This document shows positions 3,778 through 46,880 of a stretch of DNA of 64,000 nucleotides, piece after piece. The position numbers were made by a program, and so were the translations under genes. The notes beneath the pieces are model-generated. The model did no database searches and was not told the DNA's origin. It was given only the letters and a program-made list of their open reading frames with translations. Each line of letters begins with the position of its first letter. The stretch's first letter is position 1. Source of the stretch: Chloroflexia bacterium SDU3-3 (GTDB lineage: Bacteria > Chloroflexota > Chloroflexia > Chloroflexales > Roseiflexaceae); contig WBOU01000020.1 in NCBI GenBank assembly GCA_009268125.1, positions 1 through 64,000 of the forward strand. Reading direction: 5' to 3'.

Positions 3778-6700
3778 CTAGCTCCAGGCGCTGAGCGTGG
3801 CGATCAGGCTGCGGCCAAGGCGCAGCAGCTGCTCCTGGCGGCGCTCGAACAGCACATACAGGCCGATCAGCAGCATGCCCACCACGCCCATCACCACCCA
3901 GGTGTTGGCCGCGCGCATGGGGTCCACGCCCAGCCACAGCGCGCCAAACACCACGGCGGCCACGCCCGCCACCAGCGGCACCTGCAGCCGCCGCAGCACC
4001 CCGTAAGCGATGGAGAGCAGGCCCTCGCCGCACAGCGCGAGCGCCAGCAGCAGCGCCCGCTGGCCATCGGCCAGCACCGCGCGGGTCGCGCCCAGGCCCA
4101 GCAGCATGCCCAGCCCGGCGCACTCCAGCACCCGCGAGAGCTGGCGCTGGCCCTGGAAGCGCCGCAGGCCATCGGCCAGGGCCAGCAGGTAGAGCGCGGT
4201 GGGCGCGACGTACCATTCCGGCTCGACCCGGCCCCAGACCCACAGCTGCAGCAGCAGCGCGGCCACCAGCGCGGCGGCGGCGGCATACACCAGCATCACC
4301 ACACGGTAGCGCACGGCGGCGGTGGAGAGCAGCAGCGCCAGCATCACCAGCGTGAAGATCAGCGCGAAGAGCTGGCCCACCAGCGGGGCGACCAGGCCGA
4401 TCAGCGCCGCCAGCCCAAGCCCAACGAACAGCGGCCCCGCGCGCAGCGGGTGCAGCCACACCGCGCAGGCGGCGGAGGCGCGCTGGAAGCGGCCACCCAC
4501 CCACGCGACCAGCCAGCCCAGGGCGGCCAGCACCACCATGTCGGCCATAGCGTAGGCGCACACCCAGATCATCGGCATATCGTCCAGGCGCAGCAGCAGC
4601 AGCGCAGCCTCCAGCAGCACCAGCGAGAGGACGGCCAGCGCCACCTTCCGCTCGGCGCTGGCCAGCACAGCGGCCAGGGCGGCTATACAGACCACCTGCC
4701 AGAGCGCATCCCAGGAGGCCGCGCCCATCACGCTCGATATGGCCAGGATAAGCATGCCACATGATGCCACAGCCCCAGCGGAGAGCACCACCGTAAGGTA
4801 GATCGGCGTGCGCAGCGTGGGGGCCGTTTGCCGCACACCCAGGGCCAACAAGGCCTGTGCCCAGGCCAGCAGCGCCAACAGCCACAGGGTCATACTATCT
4901 AGCGAGCTGCCCATCGCCCAGGACTGCCCAAATACCAGAGCCAGATCGAGCGACACCAGCGCGAAGAAGGCCATCCAGCTCTTTTTCTCCCGCCCGAGCA
5001 GCCAGCCCCACCCCAGCGCCGTGGCCAGCCAGATCAAGCTGAAGCGCAGCATCTGCTCGCTGTCGCTCCACAACGTAGGTGCAAAGGTTATGCGATAGGC
5101 AGAGGGGCTAAAGGCCATTGCCAGCGGCGCGAGCAACAGCAAGCCGCCAGCTATCACTCGGTAGGGCCGCGCGTAGGCGGGCGCGGCGGGGCGCAGCGCC
5201 TCGGCCAGCAGCGCCAGGGTGAGCAGCAGCGGGATGTAGGCCAGCGAGGCCGGGAAGGCCCCCCATAGCACCAGCGCCACGTCGGCCAGCATCAGGGCCA
5301 GCAGCCCCAGCAGCCCGCCCACCAGATAGCCCAGATCGGGCGCGCGCCACAGGTAGCAGGCCAGGCCCGCCACGCCCACCAGCGCGAGCACCGCGCCCGC
5401 CTGGTAGGGCTGGAACAGCTGCGGGTAGCCCACCAGCGCCAGCAGCAGCGCCTGCGAGGCCGAGATCAGGGCAAACACCTGACCTGGCGCGCTGACTATG
5501 CGCCACGAGGTGGTGCGTGCCAGCCCCGCCGCCAGCGTATAGCACGCCGCCAGCGCCAGCAGCGCGGCCAGGTTCTCGCCAGGCGACGCATGGAAGAAGT
5601 TCAGCGACAGCATGGCCCAGGCCTGCGCGGTAAGCATCAGCAGCCAGGCCCAGCGCGCCTGCCGCCACATCAGCAGCTGGGCCAGCCACACCAGGGCCAG
5701 CATGCCCAGGCCCGGTAGGTGCGCGCCATAGGTGCCAAACGATAGCGCAGTGAACACCAGCGCCAGGCCCACGCCCGCCGCCTGCAGCACCAGCGCGTAG
5801 CCGCGCCGCAGCGAGCCAGGCCAGTAGCGCGCGGCCACGCAGGCGGCCGCGCCCAGCGGCAGCAGCGCCAGCGCGCGATGCGCGCCATCCATCGCCGCCA
5901 GATCGAGCATGGCCCAGCCCCACAGCGCCGCCAGCGGCGGCACCAGCGCCAGCGCCAGCGTCGCCAGCCCCTCCTGCCCGCGCCGCCCAAACGCGGCGAA
6001 GCGCCCACGGTGGGTGCTGGCCGCCACCAGCGCAGCCAGCGCCACCAGCACAGGCAGCGCCAAACGCTGCGGCGCTGGCCCCAGCGTACACGCCAGCACC
6101 CCCACCTGCGATGCGATCAGCAGCCCAAAGCCGTAGAGCGGGGAGGCGACCCGCACGCGGTGCGGCTCGCTGGCTACGCCCGCCGCCACATAGGCCAGGG
6201 CTAGCAGCGCAAAGCCCAGCAGCGCCACATCCACACCTGCCGCCAGCGCCACCAGCGTGCTGGCCAGCGCCAGCGGCGCGAGCGCCAGCGACACCCACAG
6301 CCAGCGCTCGCGGCGCTGCAGCCGGTAGGCCAGCGCATAGAAGCCCACTGCGGCCCAGCGCAGCCCGGCCACGCCCCAGCCCGCCCCCAGCTGGCTGGCC
6401 AGGGCCAGCGGCAGCAGTACGTGGGCGGCAGTGCGCAGCCCCAGCCCGAGCACATCGTTCCGCGCCAGCCAGCGACCCGCCAGCAGGTAGGCGAAGCCAA
6501 ATGCCATCAGCAGGCCCGACATGGGTAGCGAGAGCGCCAGATCGGGCGAGAAATCAAGCATCGCAAGGCCGATAGGCAGCGCCAGCGCGGCCAGCAGCGC
6601 CCACATCGACCTCGGCTCCATCACCAGGGCCAGCACATAGAAGGCGCAGGCCGCAAACAGCAGCAGCGCTGGGGCCGCGCCGCCCAGCCCCAGCGGCACG

Positions 6701-9657
6701 CCCACCGCCAGCACCACCGGCACCAGCGCGTGCGCCACCAGGTACGGCGGGCGCACCAGCGAGGGCCGCCAGCGCCGCAGCAGCTGCGCGCCCAGCAGCA
6801 TCAGCCCGGCCAGCGCCACGCAGGGCAGCAGCCACAGCGCACGCGGCCCCGGCACGGCCAGGCTGGTGAAGGCCAGCAGCGATCCGGGCGCGCTCACGCA
6901 CGATACCCACATCCAGCGGCGCTGGCGGTCGATCAGGGCCTCGGCCAGCATGTAGCAGGCCACGATCAGCAGCCCAAAGCCCAGCCAGTAGGCCATTTCG
7001 GCGTGGAAGTGCCCCAGCGACAGCGCCGCCGTCACCGATCCCGCCGCCACCGCAGACTCGCCCCACACACGGCGGCGGCGCAGCAGCGCCTGCGCCACTA
7101 GCGTCAGCGTCAGCAGGCCCATGCCAACAATATGCAGGCCCGCGCTGCTAAAGCTGATCAGCGTCAGCGTAATCGCTAGGAGCGCCGCAGCCGCCTGAAG
7201 CGCGTCGTCGTAGCGAGGCCGCAGCGCGCCGGGCCAGTGCCGCGCCGCCACACACGCCGCCGCCGCAAGCGGCAGCAGCGCCACCGCCCGCTCGGCGGCG
7301 GAGAGCGCCGCGAGATCGAGCATGGCCCAGCCCCACAGCGCGCCCAGCACCACCAGCGCGGCCATGGCGCTGGCGGCGGCCTGCTCGCGCAGCATCCTGC
7401 CCAGCATCGCCATCCGCCCGCGGTGCGCAGCGGTGGCCGCCAGCGCGCAGAAAAGCAGCAGGATCGGCAGCGCCACACGCAGCGCAGGCCCTCCCGCGAG
7501 CACCGCATCGGCGCAGGCCAGCGCGGCAATTACCGCCCCCAGGCCGTAGAGCGGCGCGGCGAACCGCCCCCAGCGTGGCTCGCCCAGCGCGCCGCTGGCC
7601 AGGTAGCCCAGCGCCAGCAGCGCGAACAGGGCCGCGCGCAGCGCCGCATCCACTTGCAGCAGCAGCAGATCCGTGCCCGCCGCAGCCGCCAGCAGCGCCA
7701 GCGCAGCCCACAGCCAGCGCACGCGCCGCGACAGCGCCGAGCACAGCGCGTAGAACCCAGCCGCCATCCACAGCAGCCACGACAGCTCCCACGTCAGCCC
7801 GATGTGCAGCAGCAGCACCAGCGGCGGAATGAGGTAGGCCACCACCAGCGGACCAAACGTGGCCGGGTGCTGCTGCCACCAGCGGTGCGCCAGCACGCGG
7901 TAGAGCGCGGCCAGCAGCAGCAGGGCGTACCACGTGGCAGCGGCGACGCGGAAGTCAAGCGAGAGATCCTGCAGCACGATCGCCAGCGGCAGCAGCGTCG
8001 CCGCCACCAGGCCCCAGATCTCAACCGGCTTCTCGCGCAGCACGATCAGGTAGAAGCCCAGCGCGGCCCAGGCCGCCATGGCCATGGTGGCGTGCGCGAC
8101 GCCCAGCCCCACGCCCACCAGCAGCGCGAAGGGCACGATCACATGCGCCGCCTTCCAGAGGATCGCTGCGATCTCCTGCTGGCCGCGCAGCGCCGCCCGC
8201 CCGCCCACCAGCAGCGCCTCAAGCGCGATCACCAGCGCCATCCACACATCCGGTCGCCCCGGCGCTACCGCCAGACCGGCGGCGGCCATCGCCAGCGGCG
8301 CGAGCAGGCTTGCGGCCCATGCCCAGATCGGGTTGCGGCCCAGCGTGGCGGCCAGCAGATAGAGCGCCGTGCCCGCCCCAAACGTGAGGGAGAGCATCCA
8401 CGGGTCGAGCAGCCCGCCCAGCCAGAGCGGCACCGCCACCAGCAGCCCCGCCAATCCAAGCAGATGCGCGACCCATGTGAGCTGCGGGGCGAACTCGGCC
8501 CGCCCGCCGCGCTCAAGCCGCCACGCCAGCGCGATATACCCCGCCATCGCGGCCACCAGCGCGGGCGGCACCGCCTGCCAGGAGATGAAGCTGGCCGCCG
8601 CCGCCGCCAGGCTTGCGCCAGCCAGCCCCGCATTCACCACAAAGAAGCGCTGGCCAGTGCGGCGCACCGCCCAGGTGTAGAGCGGCACACACGCCAGCGA
8701 GGCCAGCAGCCACGCGGCCTGGTTCCCCACGCCCATGGTCAGCGTGATCGCGGCCATGCAGATAGGGGCCAGCGCGCCGCTCACCGAGCGCAGCCCCGCG
8801 CCCGCGCTCGGCAGCTGCCAGCGGCGCTCGATCCTATCGCCCGCCGCCCAGAACGAGCCAGTCACCACGGCCATCAGCACGCACTGCAGCATGCGCGGGA
8901 AGCTGGCCCAGTTGAACACCACCAGCACCACCGACGAGACCAGCATCAGGAACATGCCTAGGTACAGCATCACCTGGCGCGTGCGCAGCGCCAGCGCGCC
9001 GGCCCAAGCCCGCTCCAGCAGCGATGGGGTGGGCGGCGTAGGCGGCGTCTGAACCACATTCTCCTGTTTCTCTGCTGCCGACGCCTGTACTATCGCAGGC
9101 GCTGCCTCACGCTCCGCCGCCGCCGACACCTGCGCCGCCTCAGCCACTGGTTCCCGTTCCTCCGCTGTCGGCAGCGGTGCCGCTGCCTCCGCTGTCGGCA
9201 GCGGCACCGCTGCTGCATCCGCCGCCTCTACCGCGTTGGATAGCCATTCTGGCAGCGGCGCAGGCGCGGTCAGTGCCTCGGCTGGCACCGCCGTTGGGAT
9301 CGCATCATCGGTTGGCGCAGCCACTACCTGCGCCTGGGCCTCTAGCAGCCAGGCGGGGATCGCCTGCTCGGGTGCGGGCTGCGCCTCGGGCGGCGCAGGG
9401 GCGGGCTGCGCCTCGGGCGGCGCGGCGGGCCAGGGGCGCGGGACGCCGCGCGACAGCACCAGCCGCCGCACCGGCGCGGCCTCATCCGCCGTCAGATAGC
9501 CCGCTTGCACCCAGGTGTGGATCAGGCGCTCCATCTCGCCATACAGCACATCCGGCGGCACCGCTGGCGCGCTGGACTGGCGGATGCTGACAAAGATCAG
9601 ACCGAGCACCAGCATCACCAGCACCAGGAAGCAGAAACAGCCGATAAGTTCATACAT
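3778..9657 (-). CDS. Giant polytopic membrane protein (SCO7613 C-terminal/DUF2157-like)
   Basis: This 1959-residue protein starts with one membrane segment (about residues 4-27), then a cytosolic or linker region rich in Ala, Pro, Glu and Gln (about 65-215). Several dozen hydrophobic helices follow to the C-terminus. The segment starting LRTRQVMLYLGMFL (about 225) and the following FNW and GDRIERRW motifs are typical of the actinobacterial SCO7613 C-terminal/DUF2157-like membrane family. Internal repeats are visible: AxPLYGxG, LxVALPxL, HRGR and WGWAMLDLAA blocks recur around residues 700-760 and 1180-1270, suggesting duplication. The start ATG at 9657 is chosen because AAGGAG lies nine bases upstream; a TTG 27 bases earlier would place that motif inside the gene. 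Function is unknown; the family is usually proposed to act at the envelope. Confidence 0.75.
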   Translation of the reverse strand: MYELIGCFCFLVLVMLVLGLIFVSIRQSSAPAVPPDVLYGEMERLIHTWVQAGYLTADEAAPVRRLVLSRGVPRPWPAAPPEAQPAPAPPEAQPAPEQAIPAWLLEAQAQVVAAPTDDAIPTAVPAEALTAPAPLPEWLSNAVEAADAAAVPLPTAEAAAPLPTAEEREPVAEAAQVSAAAEREAAPAIVQASAAEKQENVVQTPPTPPTPSLLERAWAGALALRTRQVMLYLGMFLMLVSSVVLVVFNWASFPRMLQCVLMAVVTGSFWAAGDRIERRWQLPSAGAGLRSVSGALAPICMAAITLTMGVGNQAAWLLASLACVPLYTWAVRRTGQRFFVVNAGLAGASLAAAAASFISWQAVPPALVAAMAGYIALAWRLERGGRAEFAPQLTWVAHLLGLAGLLVAVPLWLGGLLDPWMLSLTFGAGTALYLLAATLGRNPIWAWAASLLAPLAMAAAGLAVAPGRPDVWMALVIALEALLVGGRAALRGQQEIAAILWKAAHVIVPFALLVGVGLGVAHATMAMAAWAALGFYLIVLREKPVEIWGLVAATLLPLAIVLQDLSLDFRVAAATWYALLLLAALYRVLAHRWWQQHPATFGPLVVAYLIPPLVLLLHIGLTWELSWLLWMAAGFYALCSALSRRVRWLWAALALLAAAAGTDLLLLQVDAALRAALFALLALGYLASGALGEPRWGRFAAPLYGLGAVIAALACADAVLAGGPALRVALPILLLFCALAATAAHRGRMAMLGRMLREQAAASAMAALVVLGALWGWAMLDLAALSAAERAVALLPLAAAACVAARHWPGALRPRYDDALQAAAALLAITLTLISFSSAGLHIVGMGLLTLTLVAQALLRRRRVWGESAVAAGSVTAALSLGHFHAEMAYWLGFGLLIVACYMLAEALIDRQRRWMWVSCVSAPGSLLAFTSLAVPGPRALWLLPCVALAGLMLLGAQLLRRWRPSLVRPPYLVAHALVPVVLAVGVPLGLGGAAPALLLFAACAFYVLALVMEPRSMWALLAALALPIGLAMLDFSPDLALSLPMSGLLMAFGFAYLLAGRWLARNDVLGLGLRTAAHVLLPLALASQLGAGWGVAGLRWAAVGFYALAYRLQRRERWLWVSLALAPLALASTLVALAAGVDVALLGFALLALAYVAAGVASEPHRVRVASPLYGFGLLIASQVGVLACTLGPAPQRLALPVLVALAALVAASTHRGRFAAFGRRGQEGLATLALALVPPLAALWGWAMLDLAAMDGAHRALALLPLGAAACVAARYWPGSLRRGYALVLQAAGVGLALVFTALSFGTYGAHLPGLGMLALVWLAQLLMWRQARWAWLLMLTAQAWAMLSLNFFHASPGENLAALLALAACYTLAAGLARTTSWRIVSAPGQVFALISASQALLLALVGYPQLFQPYQAGAVLALVGVAGLACYLWRAPDLGYLVGGLLGLLALMLADVALVLWGAFPASLAYIPLLLTLALLAEALRPAAPAYARPYRVIAGGLLLLAPLAMAFSPSAYRITFAPTLWSDSEQMLRFSLIWLATALGWGWLLGREKKSWMAFFALVSLDLALVFGQSWAMGSSLDSMTLWLLALLAWAQALLALGVRQTAPTLRTPIYLTVVLSAGAVASCGMLILAISSVMGAASWDALWQVVCIAALAAVLASAERKVALAVLSLVLLEAALLLLRLDDMPMIWVCAYAMADMVVLAALGWLVAWVGGRFQRASAACAVWLHPLRAGPLFVGLGLAALIGLVAPLVGQLFALIFTLVMLALLLSTAAVRYRVVMLVYAAAAALVAALLLQLWVWGRVEPEWYVAPTALYLLALADGLRRFQGQRQLSRVLECAGLGMLLGLGATRAVLADGQRALLLALALCGEGLLSIAYGVLRRLQVPLVAGVAAVVFGALWLGVDPMRAANTWVVMGVVGMLLIGLYVLFERRQEQLLRLGRSLIATLSAWS

Positions 9658-9907: not shown

Positions 9908-10642
9908 CTAGAGCAGCATCCGCACGCCCGCCAGTACCGCCAGGCCCAGCGCCAGATTCTCGAACAGCTCCTGGTTGATAAAGCGGATCAGCCAGCGCCC
10001 CACCAGCGCCCCCGCCACCGCAAAGGGCGCGAGCGCCAGGCTCACCTGCAGGCTGCCCATGTTCACCATGCCCAGCCCCACGCTAAACGGCACCTTGAAC
10101 AGGTTCAGCACCAGAAAAAACCACGCGGTGGTGCCGATAAACACCATCTTGGGCAGGCGCATCGCCAGCAGGTAGATCGCCATGATCGGCCCCGCCGCGT
10201 TCGCGATCATGGTGGTGATCCCGCCGAACAGCCCGGCCAGCGGCCCCACCCAGCGGCGCGGCGGGGCATCCGGCGCGGCGGGGCTGCGGCGGCGCAGCAG
10301 CACCATGCCCACCAGCGTCACCAGCGTCACCCCGATCAGGCGCTTCATCAGCGTGTCGTCGATCCGGCCCAGGGCCACGGCCCCGATCACCACGCCCGCC
10401 GCTGCCCACGGGAACAGCCGCAGCAGCTGCGGCCAGTCGGCCTCGCGCCGGTAGGCCGCCACCGCCACCACATCCCCCGCGATCAGCACGATCAGCATCA
10501 CCCCCACCGACTCACGCGCGGGGATGATGCTGGCAAACAGCGCCACCGCCAGAATCCCCAGACCCGTCACCCCCGTCTTCGACATGCCCACGATAAACGC
10601 CGCCAGGGCCGCCAGCGCCCACTGCCATAGCTCCATAGCCAT
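9908..10642 (-). CDS. TauE/SafE-family membrane permease
   Basis: This 244-residue protein has about eight hydrophobic segments. The N-terminal GMSKTGVTGLG motif and a second half with G(L/I)FGGITTMIANAAGP are typical of the TauE/SafE (DUF81) family, whose members are proposed exporters or importers of sulfite, sulfoacetate or related organosulfur anions. The substrate here cannot be told from sequence. GGAAGGAA lies 4 bases before the ATG; an in-frame ATG two codons later is a weaker alternative. It has its own downstream terminator and appears monocistronic. The 10643-10888 gap upstream holds no recognisable gene. Confidence 0.85.
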   Translation of the reverse strand: MAMELWQWALAALAAFIVGMSKTGVTGLGILAVALFASIIPARESVGVMLIVLIAGDVVAVAAYRREADWPQLLRLFPWAAAGVVIGAVALGRIDDTLMKRLIGVTLVTLVGMVLLRRRSPAAPDAPPRRWVGPLAGLFGGITTMIANAAGPIMAIYLLAMRLPKMVFIGTTAWFFLVLNLFKVPFSVGLGMVNMGSLQVSLALAPFAVAGALVGRWLIRFINQELFENLALGLAVLAGVRMLL

Positions 10643-10888
10643 CTATTCCTTCCCAGGCTGCCTACCTACCTATTCTTCGCAGCCAGAAGCATCATATACC
10701 GCTGAGCGTAGCAGCCAACGCCCACACCGTCAAATCGCACCGACCTGCCGAAAAGCGACGGCTGGCCATGGGCGATTCATAACGATAGGATCAAGGCGGT
10801 ATCGGTTTACAGCATCAGAGAGGGATGTATATTGAGAAGCTACTCACACAATGGGGTATGACAATTAGGCATTCTGGTATACAATAGC

Positions 10889-11605
10889 CTACGACGCGAT
10901 GCCCGGAGCCTCGTAGGGGGGGAACCGACTATGGCTGATCAACACTGCCGCCGCCTCTTGCTCGGTAAGAATATAGCTCGGGATCGCGCGGCGGCGGCGC
11001 TCGTAGGCGCTTACCACCCGGTGATTTCCATCCAGAATCACATACTGGCCGCCATCTAGGTGCACCAGCCCATGGGCGTGCGGCAGCAGCACAATCGGCG
11101 GATGCTGGATGCCTTTCGGCACCAGCACGTGGCGCACGTAGGGCATATTGATGTCCACCTGGCCCTGCTGGAACGGCTCGACCAGCGGCTCGACCGGCAG
11201 CGGGCGGGCCATGCGGCCCGTCACCAGGGCGTAGGCGGGCGTCACCCGCCAGCAGAAGGTCTGGCGTAGCTCGGCCACGGTAAACACCAAGATCTGCTTC
11301 ATGCCCTGGGCCAGGGGGATGGTGGGCGCAAGCTGCAGCGCCCGCATGGCAAAGTGGCCACGGGCCAGCAGCCCGGTCAGCGCAAACAGCAGGGTCGCCT
11401 TACGATCCTTCAGCTGCCCTGTGGTCTCGGGCCACGAGAGCGCGGCGGCGATCACCTGATCGACCAGGCCAGCATCGTCGTACTGGATGGCCGCCGCCAG
11501 CGTGCCAAGAAATTGCCGCTCGGGGTCACGCCGCGCCGCGATCAGGGCCAGCGTGCGCGCCGGGGTGGGGAAGCCGGAGAAGTTGGGACGAGCCATTCGC
11601 TGCAC
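10889..11605 (-). CDS. ParB/Srx-like DGNHR-motif protein
   Basis: This protein has 238 residues. The C-terminal part contains VILDGNHRVVSAYERRR followed by IPSYILTEQE. This resembles the D-G-x-H-R nucleotide-binding motif of ParB N-terminal/sulfiredoxin-like folds, in which the His and Arg contact nucleotide phosphates. The N-terminal half is helical and unrecognised. There is no helix-turn-helix, so it is not a chromosome-partition ParB. The start is a GTG with GAGGG about four bases upstream; an ATG lies three codons later. A LexA-like palindrome sits 23 bases upstream of the start. Confidence 0.5.
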   Translation of the reverse strand: MQRMARPNFSGFPTPARTLALIAARRDPERQFLGTLAAAIQYDDAGLVDQVIAAALSWPETTGQLKDRKATLLFALTGLLARGHFAMRALQLAPTIPLAQGMKQILVFTVAELRQTFCWRVTPAYALVTGRMARPLPVEPLVEPFQQGQVDINMPYVRHVLVPKGIQHPPIVLLPHAHGLVHLDGGQYVILDGNHRVVSAYERRRRAIPSYILTEQEAAAVLISHSRFPPYEAPGIAS

Positions 11606-11627
11606 AGCACCCTCGGGAACACAGTGT

Positions 11628-11641
11628 CGAACATTCGTTCG
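11628..11641. promoter_or_regulatory. LexA/SOS-box-like palindrome
   Basis: CGAACATTCGTTCG has perfect CGAAC and GTTCG half sites, fitting the GAAC-N4-GTTC form of the Gram-positive-type SOS box. It lies immediately upstream of the minus-strand gene starting at 11605. Similar one-mismatch sites occur at 62499-62512 and 63085-63098. Whether a LexA of this organism uses this motif is inference. Confidence 0.4.
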
Positions 11642-11815
11642 TTTCTATCCTAGCAATCCCTGAGGCGATTGTCAAGGCGCGCCCAACGCCACAAGCCCCT
11701 GCGCATGCCCTCGCTACGAAGCAGCATCGCACATGGGCATGGCAGGGCCAGGGCGCGCAGCGCACCCGATGGGATGCCCGCAATAATGTAGAACGCTATG
11801 ACACAAAGGAGCAAG

Positions 11816-12292
11816 ATGATGGGGATACGCGCACACTTTTCCGATCAGGAATGGCGGCAGATCTACGAGGCACCAGTATTTGCGGGGCTAGTGATGATCA
11901 CCGCCAAACGGAGTGCGCCGGTGCAGGCGGTGCAGGAAATGTTTGCCGTCAGCCACGCCATCATCAAGACCGACCAGCGCGTCCACAGCAGCGAGCTCAT
12001 CGGCGAGATCGTCGAGGCGATCAAGCAGCGCGAGCGCTACGAGAAGATCGCGCCCAGCACATCGCTGGGCGACGCCCACGCCAAGGCGCTTGAGCACATC
12101 CGGGCAGCCGCCAGCCTGGTCGACAGTCGGCTGCCCAGCGAGTCGGCCAGCTTCAAGCGCTGGCTGATCAGCATCGGCCAGCTGGTGGCCGACACAGCGC
12201 AGCAGGGCAGCACGCGCGAGCGCGGCGGGGCCACCGCGCTGGCCGAGCCAAGCGCCCTGCGCGATCTGCGCAGGGCGCTCGGGCTGGCCTAG
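11816..12292 (+). CDS. Hypothetical protein, helical
   Basis: This protein has about 158 residues, is mostly helical and has no membrane segment. It begins MMGIRAHFSDQEWRQIYEAP. The central part is Gln/Glu/Lys/Arg-rich. I do not recognise a family; the size and helical pattern allow comparison with TerB-like proteins only weakly. The AAAGGAG at 11805-11811 sets the start at the ATG of 11816 or 11819; the ATG at 11798 would put the ribosome site inside the gene. Its TAG stop overlaps, through CTAG, the stop of the convergent minus-strand gene. Confidence 0.5.
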   Translation: MMGIRAHFSDQEWRQIYEAPVFAGLVMITAKRSAPVQAVQEMFAVSHAIIKTDQRVHSSELIGEIVEAIKQRERYEKIAPSTSLGDAHAKALEHIRAAASLVDSRLPSESASFKRWLISIGQLVADTAQQGSTRERGGATALAEPSALRDLRRALGLA

Positions 12293-29063: not shown

Positions 29064-29348
29064 ATGCACGGTGAGTACAAGGTGCCCGGCGGCAAGCTGG
29101 TCGTGGTCGACCTGGATGTGCGCGACGGGCGGCTCTGCGATATAGAGCTGAGCGGGGATTTCTTCCTGGAGCCGGATGAGGCGCTGGGCCGCATGGCCGC
29201 CGCCGTGGCCGGGCTGCCCGCCCAGGCCGACGAGGCCAGCATCGCCCAGGCGGTGCGCGAGGCCGCGGGCGACGCCGAGCTGATCGGCATCACGCCCGAG
29301 GGTGTGGCCGTGGCGGTGCGCCGCGCGGTCGAGGGGGGCGCGCGATGA
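29064..29348 (+). CDS. lplB: Lipoate-protein ligase accessory subunit (C-terminal domain)
   Basis: This 94-residue protein matches the small domain of lipoate-protein ligase that is a separate chain in Thermoplasma-type LplA/LplB. Conserved features are HGEYKVPGGKLVVVDLDV near the start and ELSGDFFLEPDEAL (about 30-43). This domain is needed for adenylation of lipoate by the catalytic subunit. The ATG follows the upstream stop by two bases with GGAGAAG before it; its end overlaps lplA by four bases (ATGA), so the two subunits are translationally coupled. Confidence 0.85.
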   Translation: MHGEYKVPGGKLVVVDLDVRDGRLCDIELSGDFFLEPDEALGRMAAAVAGLPAQADEASIAQAVREAAGDAELIGITPEGVAVAVRRAVEGGAR

Positions 29349-30133
29349 GCACACCGAACCGCGACGCCGCGTGGCGATCATACCCGTGGCAGCTCATCCA
29401 CGGCGCGGCGCTCCAGCCCGCCTGGCACATGGCCCTCGACGAGGTGCTGCTGGAGGAGGTGGCCGCAGGCCGCAGGCCGCCCACGCTGCGCATCTGGGAG
29501 TGGGCCAGCAACGCGGTGGTGATCGGGCGCTTCCAGTCGGTGCGCAACGAGGTGGACCTGGATGGCGCGGCCCGCCACGATGTCCACGTGGTGCGCCGCA
29601 TCAGCGGCGGCGGCGCGATGTTCATCGAGCCGGGCAACACCATCACCTACTCGATCTACGCGCCCCAGGCGCTGGTGGCGGGCATGCCCACCGTCGACTC
29701 CTACGCCTTCCTCGACCAGTGGGTGATCGACGCCTTCGCCGAGGTGGGCGTGAAGGCCTGGTACCAGCCGATCAACGACATCACCTCGGCGGGCGGCAAG
29801 ATCGGCGGCGCGGCCCAGAAGCGCCACCCCGGCGCGGTGCTGCACCACGTGACCATGGCCTACGACATCGACAGCGCCAAGATGCTGGAGGTGCTGCGCA
29901 TCGGGCGCGAGAAGCTGAGCGACAAGGGCACCGCCAGCGCCGCCAAGCGCGTCGACCCCGTGCGCAGCCAGACCGGCCTGCCCCGCGAGGCGATCATCGC
30001 CCAGCTCGTCGCCACCTTCCGCGCCAAGTACGGCCTCGCCGACTCCAGCCTCACCCCCGCCGAGCAGGCCGAGGCCGAGCGCCGCGTCCGCGAGAAGTTC
30101 GACACCGACGCCTGGCGCTTCATCGTCCCCTAG
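29345..30133 (+). CDS. lplA: Lipoate-protein ligase, catalytic subunit
   Basis: This 262-residue protein of the biotin/lipoate ligase fold activates lipoate with ATP and attaches it to E2 or H proteins of 2-oxoacid dehydrogenases and glycine cleavage. Motifs are VVRRISGGGAMF (R84, R85, G88-G90) and the lysine K152 in GGKIGGAAQ. It lacks a C-terminal accessory domain, which is supplied by the preceding gene. It is followed by a clear terminator at 30155-30190. Confidence 0.93.
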   Translation: MSTPNRDAAWRSYPWQLIHGAALQPAWHMALDEVLLEEVAAGRRPPTLRIWEWASNAVVIGRFQSVRNEVDLDGAARHDVHVVRRISGGGAMFIEPGNTITYSIYAPQALVAGMPTVDSYAFLDQWVIDAFAEVGVKAWYQPINDITSAGGKIGGAAQKRHPGAVLHHVTMAYDIDSAKMLEVLRIGREKLSDKGTASAAKRVDPVRSQTGLPREAIIAQLVATFRAKYGLADSSLTPAEQAEAERRVREKFDTDAWRFIVP

Positions 30134-30190: not shown

Positions 30191-30477
30191 GTGCGCCGGG
30201 GCGGGGCGGAGAGCACCCTGACAGGGGCTTGACAAGGGTGTATAATGAAGGGGCAAAAGTGTTTACGATATGATATATTATCTTCGAACAAATAACTTAA
30301 TAGCTGATTAAGCAAATTCCTAAAATTTTATCATATTCACATAATAATAACACAAGACTTTCAGGAACAACATGTTACACATAAAATATCAAAATATAGT
30401 TTAATATTTTTCTATCAATATTTTTTCTTTCACATTTTATATATTTACACCTAAGTATATAATCAAAGATAAATAAT

Positions 30478-31824
30478 ATGACCAAACCAGAAATATATCA
30501 CGTAACCGATGTTTTTACACCAACACGTCCTGCACGTGCAACATTTGTTGAGCGTGATGTAATTAATGACAAACTAGTTAGCGCACTTCAAACCCCAGGC
30601 AAGCAAATCGTTGTATATGGTCATTCTGGATCAGGCAAGACTACTCTACTTGTCAATAAATTACATCAACTTTACGAGAATCATATAACTACTAGGTGTA
30701 TTTCCGATATGACATTTGATCAGATGATAATAAATGCATTTGATCAACTTAATACATTTTTTGAAACCGAGCAAGTTAAATCCAAATCCGCACAAATATC
30801 TTCTTCAATCCAAGCCGAGTACTTTGTGATAAGATCACAAATTGGATCACAAATAGATGAACAAACTCAAACAAAGCAGCAACGAATCTTACCTCCTCAA
30901 CTTACGCCACAGACACTTGCCAAACTCCTAGGAAAATCTAAGTGTTGTTGGGTATTAGAAGACTTTCATAAGATTAATTCTATTCAAAAGAAAAATCTTT
31001 CCCAGGTTATGAAGTTATTTATGGATATGTCCGATGAATATCCTACACTTAAGATCATAGCTATTGGTGCAGTAGATACTGCAAGACAAGTTATAGAATA
31101 TGATCCAGAAATGAGAAATCGTGTTTCTGAAATATATGTTCCGCTTATGAGCGAATATGAAATTAGACAAATTATAACCAAAGGCGAAGATTTACTAAAT
31201 TTTCTCGTCGACGATCAAGTTAAATCCGGAATCACTAACTACTCTAATGGAGTCGCTTCTGTCTGTCACCAACTTCTTCTTAATATATGTTTTGCAGCAG
31301 ATATTATGGAAACAAAAATCCATGATAAACAAATTATAACCCATCAAGAATTAGCACAAGCACTTGAAATGTATTTAGAAAACGCCTCAGATACTCTTAA
31401 AAGTGCTTTTGAAAAAGCATTTCGAAAAACAAAAGCTGGGCGTTTTGATAACAATAGGCTTATTTTACGTGCTCTGGCAAAGTCTGGACAAGATGGTGCT
31501 ACCCATGGAGAACTTTTAACAATTATCAGAAAGGATCAGGCAGACTACCCGTCTGGTAATCTAACTATATACCTTAATAAGCTTCAGTCATCAGAGCGAG
31601 GGTCATTGATTAGATACAATACAGCTTCAGGAAAATATTCGTTCAATGACCCTATATATAGAGCTTTTGCAATGTCGCTCTTTGCAAAAGAAAAACATCC
31701 AACCAGTAACATCGAAATAAATATACTCAATATAATAAATTCACTCACCCCGTCTAAACCCAGCAAGACGCTTATCGATTTTCTACAACTTGCTATTGAT
31801 TTTCAAAATAAGAAAAACACATAG
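30478..31824 (+). CDS. P-loop AAA-type ATPase in AT-rich island
   Basis: This 448-residue ATPase has Walker A GHSGSGKT (48-55, K54) and Walker B CCWVLEDFH (E161/D162). A sensor-1-like LKIIAIGAVDTAR lies near 195-207 and an RNRVSEIYVPLMSEYEI segment near 220, as in ORC/Cdc6- and STAND-like ATPases. The C-terminal third (about 320-420) looks like a winged-helix region. There is no nuclease, TIR or membrane domain. ATPases of this type, paired with a small protein, occur in mobile and defence contexts, but I cannot assign a family. The start ATG follows AAAGATAAATA without a strong Shine-Dalgarno. Confidence 0.75.
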   Translation: MTKPEIYHVTDVFTPTRPARATFVERDVINDKLVSALQTPGKQIVVYGHSGSGKTTLLVNKLHQLYENHITTRCISDMTFDQMIINAFDQLNTFFETEQVKSKSAQISSSIQAEYFVIRSQIGSQIDEQTQTKQQRILPPQLTPQTLAKLLGKSKCCWVLEDFHKINSIQKKNLSQVMKLFMDMSDEYPTLKIIAIGAVDTARQVIEYDPEMRNRVSEIYVPLMSEYEIRQIITKGEDLLNFLVDDQVKSGITNYSNGVASVCHQLLLNICFAADIMETKIHDKQIITHQELAQALEMYLENASDTLKSAFEKAFRKTKAGRFDNNRLILRALAKSGQDGATHGELLTIIRKDQADYPSGNLTIYLNKLQSSERGSLIRYNTASGKYSFNDPIYRAFAMSLFAKEKHPTSNIEINILNIINSLTPSKPSKTLIDFLQLAIDFQNKKNT

Positions 31825-31905
31825 AATTAAACACAATTTAAATAACTCTATCAAATATAGCATTAATTTATCAAAAACCCCAACCAATAAATATGAAAGG
31901 TTTGT

Positions 31906-32232
31906 ATGAAATTTTTCATCCCATACGCTAAAGATAAAGAACAAGAACAGAACGTTTACGACAGTACAAAAAGATTTCTCTCTGAACAACTAGGCGCTGA
32001 GTTCGCTGATAGAAAGATCTTCAGTCTACGATATCATCATAATGGAAAATCTTACTACGCCGAAGTAGGAAAGAACGACACAGTAGAAGGTGAACCTGTC
32101 ATAGTGATTCTCTACGAAGCTATGCGATCACTATACCATATCTGTACTCCTAATAGGGGCGTTGTACGAGGCATGTCTATTCTCGTTGGTTCTCATGAAG
32201 TGGAACAAGTGGTTGATTTCGAGCAAGAATAA
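31906..32232 (+). CDS. Small protein paired with the ATPase, function unknown
   Basis: This 108-residue soluble protein begins MKFFIPYAKDKEQEQ. A central strand pair reads IFSLRYHHNGKSYYAEVGK and a terminal region reads RGMSILVGSHEVEQVVDFEQE. It is 81 bases downstream of the ATPase, same strand and same AT-rich composition, so probably in the same transcript. AAAGG is seen 7 bases before the ATG. I do not recognise a family; a compact alpha/beta fold is suggested by alternating strands and helices. Confidence 0.65.
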   Translation: MKFFIPYAKDKEQEQNVYDSTKRFLSEQLGAEFADRKIFSLRYHHNGKSYYAEVGKNDTVEGEPVIVILYEAMRSLYHICTPNRGVVRGMSILVGSHEVEQVVDFEQE

Positions 32233-32629
32233 CTCTATCGTGACTCTACGACTAACAAAATCCCATCAACAAACCATAGCTTATTATCATCGGATAACCA
32301 CATAAAATAGCTTGTCATGAACTATCTTATGTAATCATCTATTCCTCCAACCTCAGTACGGATCAATGCTCACCCAACAAATGCCCGATGGGGCGAGTCA
32401 GGCAAAATCATAATGCATTCGCCATGCCTAATGATCCCTCCGCCATGCCTGGCGACGCGCCCAGCGACACCGGGCAGCGCCCACAGCGGGCATCAGCGCT
32501 ACCCACCCCTCCCCAAGCCACCGCCCGCGCTGATACAGCCTCCACGCCCCGCCCGCAGCCCCACAAGCCCCCCGCGCACAGCCCCAAGGCACACCCACAG
32601 CTATTCAGCTACCCCATCCGCGCCTATGC

Positions 32630-32635
32630 TATACT
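32630..32635 (+). promoter_or_regulatory. TATACT box before the DUF3427-like gene
   Basis: CTATGCTATACTTAG lies about 50 bases before the GTG at 32686. The gap 32233-32685 changes from AT-rich to GC-rich at about 32400; the GC-rich part has a Pro/Ala-biased open frame that I do not regard as a gene. Confidence 0.4.
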
Positions 32636-32685
32636 TAGCGGCGTCATCCCACACCGAGAGACCCACGGAGGAAGGAGCTATCGCT

Positions 32686-33081
32686 GTGCCCGTCTCCTTT
32701 GAAGCGATCGCCGTCGGCCAGACCTACTCGCGCAATGATCTCGTGCGCATCTGGGGCTATGCGGCACCCCAGGCGCTCGCTCGCGGCGTCGTCACGCCGA
32801 AGAATGACCACAAGATCATCCTCTTTGTCACAAAAGAGAAGCAGGCGAGCGCGACGCAGTACCAAGATCATATCGAGGGCAGCCAGCTCTTCTGGGAAGG
32901 CCCAAACGATCACTTCGCCGAGGATCGCATCGTAGGCGCACCCAAGAATAGCGACGAGATCCATCGCTTCTACCGCGAGCGCCATCACGCCGACTTCACC
33001 TACTATGGCCAGATCACGCCGACCCAGGCCCAGCAATATGCCGATCAGCCGAGCCGCTTTGTGTTTGCGTTAGGGTCATAG
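32686..33081 (+). CDS. Stand-alone DUF3427-like protein
   Basis: This 131-residue protein resembles DUF3427, usually found at the C-terminus of superfamily 2 helicases. Matching features are VGQTYSRNDLVRIWGY near the start, QYQDHIEGSQLFWEGPN in the middle and ADFTYYGQITP near the end. Here the domain stands alone, without a helicase. The start is a GTG eight bases after GGAGGAAGGAG, a very strong ribosome site. A 28-codon segment near its end is repeated at 34144-34228. The role is unknown; nucleic-acid recognition is a reasonable guess. Confidence 0.65.
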   Translation: MPVSFEAIAVGQTYSRNDLVRIWGYAAPQALARGVVTPKNDHKIILFVTKEKQASATQYQDHIEGSQLFWEGPNDHFAEDRIVGAPKNSDEIHRFYRERHHADFTYYGQITPTQAQQYADQPSRFVFALGS

Positions 33082-33943: not shown

Positions 33944-33998
33944 CAATCGACCAGGGCGGCCAAGGCAGCCCAATGCACAAGGCCGCCCTGGTCGATTG
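33944..33998 (+). terminator. 18-bp perfect inverted repeat
   Basis: CAATCGACCAGGGCGGCC (33944-33961) pairs without mismatch with 33981-33998 around a 19-base loop. It lies 29 bases after the isochorismatase-like gene. No T-run follows, so it is a probable but atypical terminator. Confidence 0.6.
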
Positions 33999-34143
33999 TG
34001 GGTGCGCACGTCCTCGCGGTCAGCTGCCCCTGCGCACCCTGCGCCCATGCCATCGCACGCACCGCGAGCCTTCCCGCAGGCCCACTTCGTGATCCCGCTG
34101 CGGGGCGACAGCGCCGATCAGGTCGCGCAGAGGAAAAGAGATG

Positions 34144-34228
34144 AGCGACGAGATCCATCGCTTCCACCGCGAGCGCCATCACGCCGACTTTACCTACTAC
34201 AGACAGATCACGCCGACCCAAACCCAGC
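34144..34228 (+). pseudogene. Duplicated fragment of the DUF3427-like gene
   Basis: The 85 bases here encode DEIHRFHRERHHADFTYY and nearby residues, nearly identical at DNA level to 32951-33035 in the intact gene (about eight substitutions). The fragment has no start region and runs into a different sequence after CAGATCACGCCGACCCAAAC. It is a partial duplication that lost both ends. Confidence 0.85.
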
Positions 34229-35681: not shown

Positions 35682-36037
35682 TGTGAACGATACGCTCAGC
35701 TCGCATGAAAATCATGATTGCGGCGCACCATCCCACCTTGCCCATGCGGCGAAGGTGCTACGCGTGCACGCTGGCCATATGCACGAACACCAGCAGCCAG
35801 GGAGCAGCACGGGAACGCCCAAAATTGGGGGATCGAAGGGGGCATCGCCCCCTCGCGGGTGTGAACGATACGCTCAGCTCGCATGAAAATCATGATTGCG
35901 GCGCACCATCCCACCTTGCCCATGCGGCGAAGGCGCTACGCGTGCAAACTGGCCATATGCACGAACACCAGCTGCTAGTTTTCAGCATAGGAACGCTCAA
36001 AATTGGGGGATCGAAGGGGGCATCGCCCCCTCGCGGG
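35682..36037 (+). repeat. Two tandem copies of a dispersed repeat, about 179-bp period
   Basis: Units begin at 35682 and 35861 with GTGAACGATACGCTCAGC and run through GCGGCGCACCATCCCACC, GCCATATGCACGAACACCAG, AAAATTGGGGGATCGAAGGG and GGGCATCGCCCCCTCGCGGG. The second copy continues into TAGGGGCTGGCCCCTAG and CCGCCCGCGCAGGGCA (to about 36080), as does the inverted copy at 25545-25735. No gene is recognised in 35507-36337. Confidence 0.85.
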
Positions 36038-37865: not shown

Positions 37866-37920
37866 CAGCACATGTCGCCGTGCCACGAGATGGTGGCGTG
37901 GCGACATGTGCTGATCGTTC
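37866..37920 (+). terminator. Hairpin with T-run after the coiled-coil gene
   Basis: CAGCACATGTCGCC (37866-37879) pairs with GGCGACATGTGCTG (37900-37913); the inner arms GTGCCAC and GTGGC(G)T extend the stem imperfectly. CTTTTT follows about ten bases later. It is probably a terminator. Confidence 0.65.
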
Positions 37921-37967: not shown

Positions 37968-38594
37968 ATGAACATTATTCTCGCTGCCGTTGAGGCAGAC
38001 CTAGCCGACGCCTTTGAACACTTCTGCGCTGGGATCGCCGACGTCACCATCCACCGAGGTTCGATCCTCGACCTAGCGGTTGACGCGGTGGTCAGCCCGG
38101 CCAACAGCTTTGGCTTCATGGATGGCGGTATTGACATGCTCTACAGCCGTTTCTTTGGCTGGCACGTTCAATATCGTCTCCAGCAGCTGATTCAGACCCG
38201 GCACTATGGCGAGCTTGTGGTTGGCACCGCCGAGATCGTCCCAACAGACCATGATCGTATTCCCTATCTGATCGCGGCCCCAACGATGCGCGTTCCCATG
38301 ATCCTGCGCGATTCCGTCAACCCCTATCTCGCCTGCCGCGCGGCGCTGTTGCTCGCCAAATACGGCACCTTGCCCGATGGAACCGCTGTCGCCGCTGTGG
38401 TTCAGTCAGTCGCGATCCCTGGTCTCGGCACGGGGGTTGGTCGCGTTAGCCCTCGTACCTGCGCCTATCAGATCCGCACGGCCATTGATGAGGTGCTGTC
38501 TGGCCATGCTGCCTTCCCCTCCTCTTGGCACGATGCGCAGACTCGCCATCAGCAGCTTTACGCTTCCTCCACTCGCGATCTGCAGTACGAGTGA
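37968..38594 (+). CDS. Macro-domain protein
   Basis: This 208-residue protein has the macro-domain ADP-ribose-binding motifs: VTIHRGSILDLAVDAVVSPA (start of the fold), NSFGFMDGGID (the NxxxxxxGGVD-like loop) and SVAIPGLGTGVGRVSP (the GxGxG loop). Macro domains bind or remove ADP-ribose and its derivatives. The protein is a single domain without partners such as a DarT toxin next door, so the role is open. The ATG at 37968 follows ACAGGGCAATTTTCAC with a weak ribosome site. Confidence 0.85.
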   Translation: MNIILAAVEADLADAFEHFCAGIADVTIHRGSILDLAVDAVVSPANSFGFMDGGIDMLYSRFFGWHVQYRLQQLIQTRHYGELVVGTAEIVPTDHDRIPYLIAAPTMRVPMILRDSVNPYLACRAALLLAKYGTLPDGTAVAAVVQSVAIPGLGTGVGRVSPRTCAYQIRTAIDEVLSGHAAFPSSWHDAQTRHQQLYASSTRDLQYE

Positions 38595-44981: not shown

Positions 44982-45629
44982 ATGACCAACATCGAACATG
45001 CATATAAGCAGGTAGAACAGTTTAAGGGTACCTCCTTCCGCAAGCGTATTGCCGACCTCGAAGCAGAGCTTCAGGGCGTAGATCAGCGGTCGTGCCAACA
45101 TTTTTACTCCGCACAGCAGATTGACACATCGCTCTTGATCGCAGCGCTTTTTCTCAAAAAGGCATCAAGCCAAATCAATGAAGTAGTGCATGCGCTTGGT
45201 ATCATACTCTCTCTGCCATATCTTCTCCGTGAAGGCGAAATGATTGAATATGTGTCTCTGGCGGCAGGAAACACAGGGCGGCCATTTGATCTTGAAACGA
45301 ATATGCGCGTTGCCGAATTTAAGTTTACCGATTGGAAGGGTGGGCCAGAGGCCGTTCGTCAAAACCAGCTCTTTAAAGATTTCTACCTGCTGGCCGAGTA
45401 CGATACGCCAAAGGAACGCTTCCTGTACTTCGTCGGTGAGGCAATACCCATGAGATTTCTGCGCGGTCGCCGCGCACTACGTAGCGTCTTGAGCCGCAGT
45501 ACTACATTATGGGCCGATTTTCAGGAACAATATGGGGCGCAATTCAAAGTTGTGACGGCTCCCACGGCTAACGCGCGTGGGCTTCAAGGGAGTGCCGCCC
45601 CACTCCACCATGTCAGGTACGAAGGGTAG
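44982..45629 (+). CDS. Hypothetical protein, C-terminus formed by an IS end
   Basis: This protein has 215 residues; the first about 190 form a soluble alpha/beta or helical protein of unrecognised family (MTNIEHAYKQVEQFKGTSF, LFLKKASSQINEVVHALGII, PFDLETNMRVAEFKFTDWKG). After FKVV the frame enters the end of the TnpB element at about 45555 and stops at 45629 inside it, so the last 20 or so residues are IS-derived. The gene is probably truncated by the insertion. GC content is lower than neighbours. Confidence 0.6.
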   Translation: MTNIEHAYKQVEQFKGTSFRKRIADLEAELQGVDQRSCQHFYSAQQIDTSLLIAALFLKKASSQINEVVHALGIILSLPYLLREGEMIEYVSLAAGNTGRPFDLETNMRVAEFKFTDWKGGPEAVRQNQLFKDFYLLAEYDTPKERFLYFVGEAIPMRFLRGRRALRSVLSRSTTLWADFQEQYGAQFKVVTAPTANARGLQGSAAPLHHVRYEG

Positions 45630-46880
45630 CGAGGCCGCGTTGGAGGATGTTGATCGCCGCATTCACATCACGATCCATCACCAGCCCACACGTCGGGCAC
45701 CTATGCACGCGGTCAGACAAGGTCTTATCGACCAATGTGCCGCAGCGGGAACACATCTTAGACGTATTGCGGGGGTCGACCAGCATGACCCGCCTGCCAG
45801 CTTCTGCCGCTTTGCTGACGGTCATCGCGATAAATTGCGACCACGCCACGTCCATAATGCTCTTGCGCATCCCGCTGCTCTTGCCTATGGCTTGTGGGGC
45901 AAGGGCTTCAAACACGATGACCTGAAAGCGATTGACGAGCGCGCGGCTTGCCTGATGCGCAAAATCGCTGCGTCGGTTGGCAATGCGCTCGTGGATCTTG
46001 GCAAGGATCACCGTTTGTTTGGCGTGTTCGGCCCAGTTTGCTGCTTGCTTGGCGGCGTCCTTCCGCCGCTGGACGCGCCCCAGGTCTGCTTCATCGCGGC
46101 GGTAGAAACGCGGATTAGGGATCTGCTCGCCATCGGAGAACGTCGCGAACGACGCCAGCCCCATATCCACGCCCACCACCTCGCCCGTGGGGCGTTGTTC
46201 ATTCGCTTCCATCTCGGAGGAAAACGAGACAAACCACTTGCCACTCCGAGAACGACGTATCGTCACGGTTTTGGGCGTTCCCTCCACGGGACGATGCAAG
46301 ACCACTTGGACCGCGCCGACTTTCGAGAGGAGCAACCGGTTGCCCTCCAGCCGCACGCCGTTCCCGTACTGCGGGTAGGTGATGCTGTCGTATCGTCCTT
46401 TGCCTTTGAACCGGGGAAAGCCTGCTTGTTCAGCGCCACGTTTGACGCGTTGGAAAAAGGCGTGATACGCCAAATCAACCCGCACCGAGACGTTTTGCAG
46501 AACTTGCGAGTGAACGCCTTTCAATGCAGGTTTTGCCATCTTCCACATCGGAAGCAGGGCCTGGGTATCGTACAACCGCAACCGCTCGCCGCGTTCTTCA
46601 TACGCGCGTTTGCGTTCGGCAAGCGTCTCGTTATAGACCCAACGGCACAGTTCCAATTGCTGCTCAAGCAATCGGCGCTGACCTTTGGTGAGATAGATGC
46701 GGTATTTGTAGGTTTTCTGCATACGTTAAGCATAGCACACCACTACGTAAAATGCAACATATGTGCTATACCGACCGTGGGCGAAAGCCGCTCAAGCGGA
46801 GCGTTTCATCCCACCGCTGAAGCTGGTGGGATGAAACGACTAAAGACAAGCATCCGTAAGCGATTACTATAACTATCGAC
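45555..46880 (-). mobile_element. IS200/IS605-family element, TnpB only
   Basis: A single tnpB gene is flanked by subterminal hairpins. On one side, CCCACG and CGTGGG face each other at about 45560-45580. On the other, GTTTCATCCCACC and GGTGGGATGAAAC form a 13-bp perfect palindrome at about 46803-46838. Such elements have no inverted terminal repeats and no target duplication, so the borders are approximate. No tnpA is present, so it would need a transposase in trans. Confidence 0.75.
45613..46722 (-). CDS. tnpB: TnpB, RNA-guided nuclease of IS200/IS605
   Basis: This 369-residue protein has RuvC catalytic residues in place: D186 in VGVDMGLASFATFSDG, E272 in VIVFEAL and D352 in MDRDVNAAINIL. 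A C-terminal zinc finger is formed by C324, C327, C342 and C345. The N-terminal helix-turn-helix region starts YKYRIYLTKGQRRLLEQQL. TnpB proteins cut DNA guided by an omega-RNA made from the right end of the element; here that RNA would come from about 45480-45650, overlapping the gene's 3' end. All key residues are intact, so the protein may be active. Confidence 0.9.
   Translation of the reverse strand: MQKTYKYRIYLTKGQRRLLEQQLELCRWVYNETLAERKRAYEERGERLRLYDTQALLPMWKMAKPALKGVHSQVLQNVSVRVDLAYHAFFQRVKRGAEQAGFPRFKGKGRYDSITYPQYGNGVRLEGNRLLLSKVGAVQVVLHRPVEGTPKTVTIRRSRSGKWFVSFSSEMEANEQRPTGEVVGVDMGLASFATFSDGEQIPNPRFYRRDEADLGRVQRRKDAAKQAANWAEHAKQTVILAKIHERIANRRSDFAHQASRALVNRFQVIVFEALAPQAIGKSSGMRKSIMDVAWSQFIAMTVSKAAEAGRRVMLVDPRNTSKMCSRCGTLVDKTLSDRVHRCPTCGLVMDRDVNAAINILQRGLATLRT

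Follow-up and report, generated by a model that had tools for sequence, protein, structure and literature searches.

An acquired AT-rich island in a Chloroflexia chromosome carries a probable stand-alone ATPase of the PDC-S59 candidate defense family

Within a 64,000-nucleotide stretch of contig WBOU01000020.1 from Chloroflexia bacterium SDU3-3 (the window), a short AT-rich segment lies between GC-rich flanks and encodes a P-loop ATPase and, directly downstream, a protein of 108 amino acids (aa). Are these two genes the parts of one undescribed system, as a sequence-only reading of the locus had proposed, or is the island better explained in another way? Using a GC profile, we mapped the island to a region of ~2.1 kb with ~34% GC, the edges being accurate to ~50 bp. 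The sharp compositional boundaries noted earlier on both sides were borne out: GC content fell from 70-74% to 20-30% across 30200-30300 and rose again to 70-78% across 32350-32450. The 2-kb segment at 30301 (34.2% GC) is the lowest of its size in the 64 kb, for which the mean is 64%, with a standard deviation of 4.6 percentage points outside the island. The main features are as follows.

29345..30133, + strand: lipoate-protein ligase A/B-type gene (LplA-B_cat; Pfam) in the left flank, with native GC content
30247..32390, no strand: AT-rich island (GC profile)
30478..31824, + strand: ORC/STAND-type AAA+ ATPase with a C-terminal winged helix, 448 aa, PDC-S59/phrog_6841 (profile matches, structure model, and tree)
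31906..32232, + strand: 108-aa protein of a small, sporadic family (homologue searches)

Both open reading frames are intact and separated by 81 bp, and they share direction and compositional bias as described before. The GC content at codon positions 1, 2, and 3 is 0.47, 0.34, and 0.25 for the ATPase and 0.56, 0.30, and 0.34 for the 108-aa protein, which is the pattern usual for AT-rich genes. Because homologues exist elsewhere and the codon positions show this composition, we consider both to be genuine genes. A foreign character of the island is supported, and horizontal acquisition is its most likely origin.

The left-flank ligase gene is conserved in nine family relatives. In an alignment with seven relatives, DNA homology ends at ~30046, inside the ligase gene, and the downstream neighborhood differs; in the one relative that we read downstream of this gene (L035), the next genes are unlike those of the window. 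No clean empty site was thus obtained, and no insertion junction can be defined. Searches at the island ends detected no terminal repeats, and searches at its edges detected no tRNA or Rfam element; no recognized defense gene or integrase is present at the locus. To the right, the island is bordered by a stand-alone DUF3427 C-terminal-like domain (32413-33081), and a 90-bp partial copy of it with 90% identity lies ~1.2 kb downstream (34139-34228), a sign of gene decay or recombination. Further right, we observed strong inverted repeats at 33944-33998 (18-bp arms that match perfectly around a 19-bp loop) and 37866-37913 (21-bp arms that match at 90% around a 6-bp loop), a 178-bp head-to-tail tandem duplication with 93% identity (35682-36037), and a lower-GC accessory region with genes for a Macro-domain protein (37968-38594) and an IS605-type TnpB (OrfB; 45613-46722). 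At the far left of the window, a short open reading frame (213-713), the translation of which contains repeated NHVG-CKNHVEFD motifs, is probably a tandem-repeat artifact.

A profile search of both proteins, as the sequence-only reading had suggested, gave an assignment for the ATPase and a small family of its own for the 108-aa protein. The ATPase matched the PADLOC profile PDC-S59 (E-value, 4.2e-31; residues 19-396 to profile positions 16-401 of 428), a match that was recovered in a genome-wide search, as well as phrog_6841 (E-value, 4e-26; residues 8-404). Its Pfam scores lie close to the curated cutoffs (AAA_16, 32.2 against 32.6; nSTAND1, 27.0 against 27.1; AAA_22, 27.1 against 27.0). PDC-S entries are single-gene putative defense candidates found via guilt-by-embedding (PMC12988326, which cites Payne et al. 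2024); PDC entries as a whole are putative candidates that are mostly untested (PMC12988326, PMC11514479). Our literature search found no paper naming PDC-S59 and no antiphage experiment on it. In a phylogenetic tree, the window ATPase is sister to all 34 other rows of the PDC-S59 clade on a branch of 1.74 changes per column, a length that makes this basal placement unsure. By sequence, then, the ATPase is a member of a catalogued candidate family and the deepest branch sampled, and to call the locus an undescribed system was too strong. Identity to the sampled relatives is at most ~23%, and direct scans of genomes and viral contigs with the single protein recovered no close relatives; given the long branch and the low identity, the function of the window ATPase may have drifted.

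The ORC/STAND-like layout that had been read from the sequence was confirmed by structure prediction and a fold search. A model built with 26 relatives from viral contigs (pLDDT, 80.5; pTM, 0.75) consists of an AAA+ core, a helical lid, a winged helix, and a short helical tail of lower confidence, with one poorly predicted insert at residues 96-139; it contains no separate N-terminal effector domain and no sensor repeats around the NTPase. The closest folds are archaeal ATPase_2 proteins (2qen, Z = 22; 2fna, Z = 20), followed by Orc/Cdc6 proteins (2qby, 1w5t, and 1fnn; Z = 18-19), plant NLR resistosomes (Z ~16, within an NLR/NB-ARC range of ~14-16), and TnsC/MuB (Z ~15). Matches in BFVD were mostly clamp loaders and added nothing specific, and phmmer detected no sequence similarity between the ATPase and proteins in the PDB. 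The following parts of the protein could be delimited.

30619..30642, + strand: Walker A, residues 48-55 (GHSGSGKT), with G48, G53, and K54 invariant among 27 aligned members
30748..30903, + strand: low-confidence insert, residues 91-142, located after helix 2 and before the Walker B strand (model and clade comparison)
30946..30969, + strand: Walker B strand and Phe-His, residues 157-164 (CWVLEDFH), with F163 and H164 unchanged in all 27 rows of the alignment
31120..31122, + strand: R215, directly before beta 5, invariant in the 27-row alignment
31450..31650, + strand: C-terminal winged-helix domain, residues 325-391 (predicted secondary structure)

As originally noted, Walker A and Walker B are intact, the latter as VLED at residues 159-162 with the acidic pair E161/D162. 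R215 is conserved in all 27 rows and in eight of nine held-out members and is absent in remoter relatives; judged from its position, it would be the arginine finger of AAA+ box VII. The predicted winged helix comprises helices at 325-335, 343-353, and 359-370 and strands at 378-381 and 386-389. The window ATPase lacks the near-invariant W224 of the clade and K51 in Walker A. These observations bear on the possibility that the island is a decayed or neutral AT-rich fragment that remained from an earlier insertion and no longer has a function, as might be suspected for a single-copy, isolated ATPase gene that has no close relatives and is followed on its right by gene fragments (the DUF3427 remnant and the partial duplicate at 34139). 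We consider this highly improbable because both open reading frames are intact, the catalytic residues (G48, G53, K54, E161/D162, and R215) are kept, and the AT-rich codon usage is still coherent.

Relatives of the ATPase were found on plasmids, in 30 prophage/viral contigs, and in a few Chloroflexota genomes. Of the 82 genomes examined from the order, the source genome is the sole one with a full-length copy. The P2-like prophages carry the gene alone and antisense to the late genes, between genes for tail completion/tail terminator and baseplate proteins; in other prophages, it adjoins genes for CI-type repressors or terminases, and in Chloroflexota chromosomes, it also stands alone. No neighbor is shared across the relatives. 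One viral contig (L074) carries two diverged ATPases of the superfamily (5965-7290 and 10627-11913) on opposite strands ~3.3 kb apart. Searches of phage isolate records with the window protein and with the plasmid relative L005 gave no match. In 35 of 38 relatives, the ATPase gene is AT-richer than its own locus, by 10.6 GC points on average, compared with a mean of +1.9 GC points for 196 control genes taken from these loci, which are not all independent. This recurrent AT-richness suggests that the window island is an extreme case of a habit of the family.

Part of the claim that the locus is a defense or mobile-element module thus stood, namely, the foreign island, the membership in a PADLOC defense-candidate family, and the life as cargo of prophages and plasmids. 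P2-like prophages in general are described as carriers of antiviral hotspots (PMC9122126). Known defense genes lie beside the ATPase in only a handful of relatives: on plasmids, it adjoins AbiTii (L005), BrnT/BrnA together with an abortive-infection gene (L062), and, in a remoter relative, a BsuBI/PstI restriction-modification operon (L064). A scan of 78 open reading frames neighboring the gene in prophages gave few matches to defense models, namely, to methyltransferase models and to PD-Lambda-5_B, each of which was hit in a single member; because of this scarce signal, we do not claim strong enrichment in defense islands.

The same distribution can be weighed against a housekeeping function, in which an ORC/Cdc6-, MuB/TnsC-, or IstB-like ATPase would help the mobile element or prophage that carries it to replicate, select targets, or regulate genes. 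Such a role would fit the winged helix, the presence of ORC/Cdc6 and TnsC/MuB among the closest folds, and the carriage on plasmids and prophages. However, neither the annotated plasmid loci nor the neighbor families include a consistent DDE transposase or replication operon, and the gene occupies unrelated backbones at non-replication sites, e.g., between tail genes and sometimes on the opposite strand, as well as standing alone in Chloroflexota chromosomes. Therefore, we regard a housekeeping role as unlikely. A transposon targeting ATPase in particular was ruled out, as no transposase neighbor family recurs in the relatives or beside the window gene.

Does the 108-aa protein work with the ATPase? 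It had been presented as a partner without a recognizable family, and indeed it had no match in Pfam, PADLOC, PHROGs, or the PDB, while a match in NCBIfam was at chance level; an identity as a toxin-antitoxin or restriction protein thus found no support in these searches. Its structure model was too poor for use (pLDDT, 52). Relatives were found on one Agrobacterium plasmid, twice in one Dehalococcoidia genome, and, with weaker similarity, a few times in Chloroflexota; all are solitary genes in unrelated contexts without the ATPase. On the Agrobacterium plasmid, genes close to the relative encode a TrlF/Ppl-like ATPase and a PD-T7-1-like fragment (L003:5992-10623). The sequence-only reading had named a lack of co-occurrence elsewhere as grounds for refuting the pair. 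Using reciprocal HMM searches, we found the partner at none of the ~45 other loci in a set of ~46 ATPase loci, and the ATPase at none of the other loci of the 108-aa gene, i.e., the two genes co-occur only in the window. A conserved two-gene pair was thus rejected, and the idea that ATPase and small protein form one module was not upheld. A lineage-specific version, i.e., a true two-gene defense or toxin-antitoxin-like module in which the 108-aa protein is the effector or regulator, can still draw on the adjoining, same-strand, AT-rich genes with their 81-bp gap and on the finding that both are full length in the same 1 of 82 genomes of the order, so that they were probably gained together. 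Yet the genes are adjacent nowhere else, the relatives of the small gene are solitary and in unrelated contexts, and those of the ATPase are lone cargo, which makes such a module quite unlikely. Because both genes are confined to the source genome within the order, a joint arrival on a single island is possible, on which the 108-aa gene is most likely an independent passenger.

The ATPase has no visible effector domain other than, possibly, the insert that precedes Walker B. In most clade members, this insert has ~50 residues, is rich in Gly, Ser, Thr, and Ala, and often has an xIPxxxG center. It contains the strongest strand-like alternation in the whole protein, with a mean z of 2.0 at 175 degrees and positive values in 18 of 18 members, and z values that, coming from related sequences, are not independent; helical periodicity gave no signal in these members. 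The alternation was replicated in nine held-out members (mean z, 2.0), was missing from five remote relatives (mean z, 0.13), and is weak in the window ATPase (z ~1.5 at 170 degrees and 0.7 at 180 degrees). Helix-2-insert-type loops meet DNA in other AAA+ proteins. From the sequence patterns, two readings fit: the insert may be an amphipathic hairpin touching membrane or a loop of the helix-2-insert type touching DNA, and in either case, it is a candidate for a built-in effector or DNA loop.

Taken together, the island is best read as acquired cargo, the working part of which is a stand-alone AAA+/STAND-class ATPase of PDC-S59 that moves singly and whose most likely role is to guard its carrier from other phages or mobile DNA, i.e., an ATPase for defense or superinfection exclusion; we assign this reading a probability of about 0.58. 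The family, fold, and motifs, the lone-gene habit, the location on mobile elements, the recurrent AT-richness, and the lack of a conserved partner are results of our analysis; we infer the defense role and, with it, the oligomerization, trigger, and effector of the ATPase. In the proposed mechanism, the winged helix would hold the nucleotide-bound ATPase off, in the manner of ORC/Cdc6 and STAND NTPases, until an infection cue releases it; subunits would then assemble via R215, and the assembled ring would act on membrane or DNA through the insert (residues 91-142) and the winged helix to stop the infection. A more specific and very speculative version, to which we give little credence, is that PDC-S59 ATPases are self-contained immune switches in which the insert hairpin with its hydrophobic tip (often xIPxxxG) extends upon ring formation to build a membrane pore of the beta-barrel kind (a beta-type resistosome). 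In that case, the window ATPase would have branched off first and would have a shorter hairpin.

Compared with PDC-S59, the window protein has a full-length profile match, the same length and layout of ATPase plus winged helix, and likewise no conserved partner. It differs in its canonical Walker A (GxxGxGKT, in contrast to GxSKxGKT in most members), the missing Trp at position 224, a shorter and less patterned insert, and the additional 108-aa gene downstream. Its location differs from that of phrog_6841, as we recognized no prophage genes around it in its chromosome. The range of the catalogued candidate is hereby extended to Chloroflexota, where its deepest branch lies. As the family travels in prophages and plasmids as a single gene that is recurrently AT-rich, it can be tested gene by gene. 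New here is the clade-wide amphipathic insert, a concrete and mutable candidate for the missing effector; the defense interpretation is plausible and was already catalogued at the family level.

With the archaeal ATPase_2/STAND-class proteins (2qen and 2fna) and Orc1/Cdc6, the window ATPase shares the AAA+ core, helical lid, and winged helix, whereas it is bacterial and mobile and has the insert of ~50 residues before Walker B; its location as lone cargo speaks against the replication role of the ORC/Cdc6 initiators, the fold of which it matches. Unlike TnsC/MuB/TniB regulators, it is not encoded with a transposase operon, and unlike STAND NTPases, it has no separate effector and repeat-sensor domains. 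Similarly, it shares nucleotide-binding, helical, and winged-helix domains with NLR/NB-ARC proteins (NRC4, the wheat resistosome, and CED-4; Z ~14-16) but has neither their sensor repeats nor a separate N-terminal effector domain. If the insert were indeed a pore-forming or DNA-contacting hairpin, PDC-S59 would provide a new link between single-gene immunity in prokaryotes and NLR-like switches.
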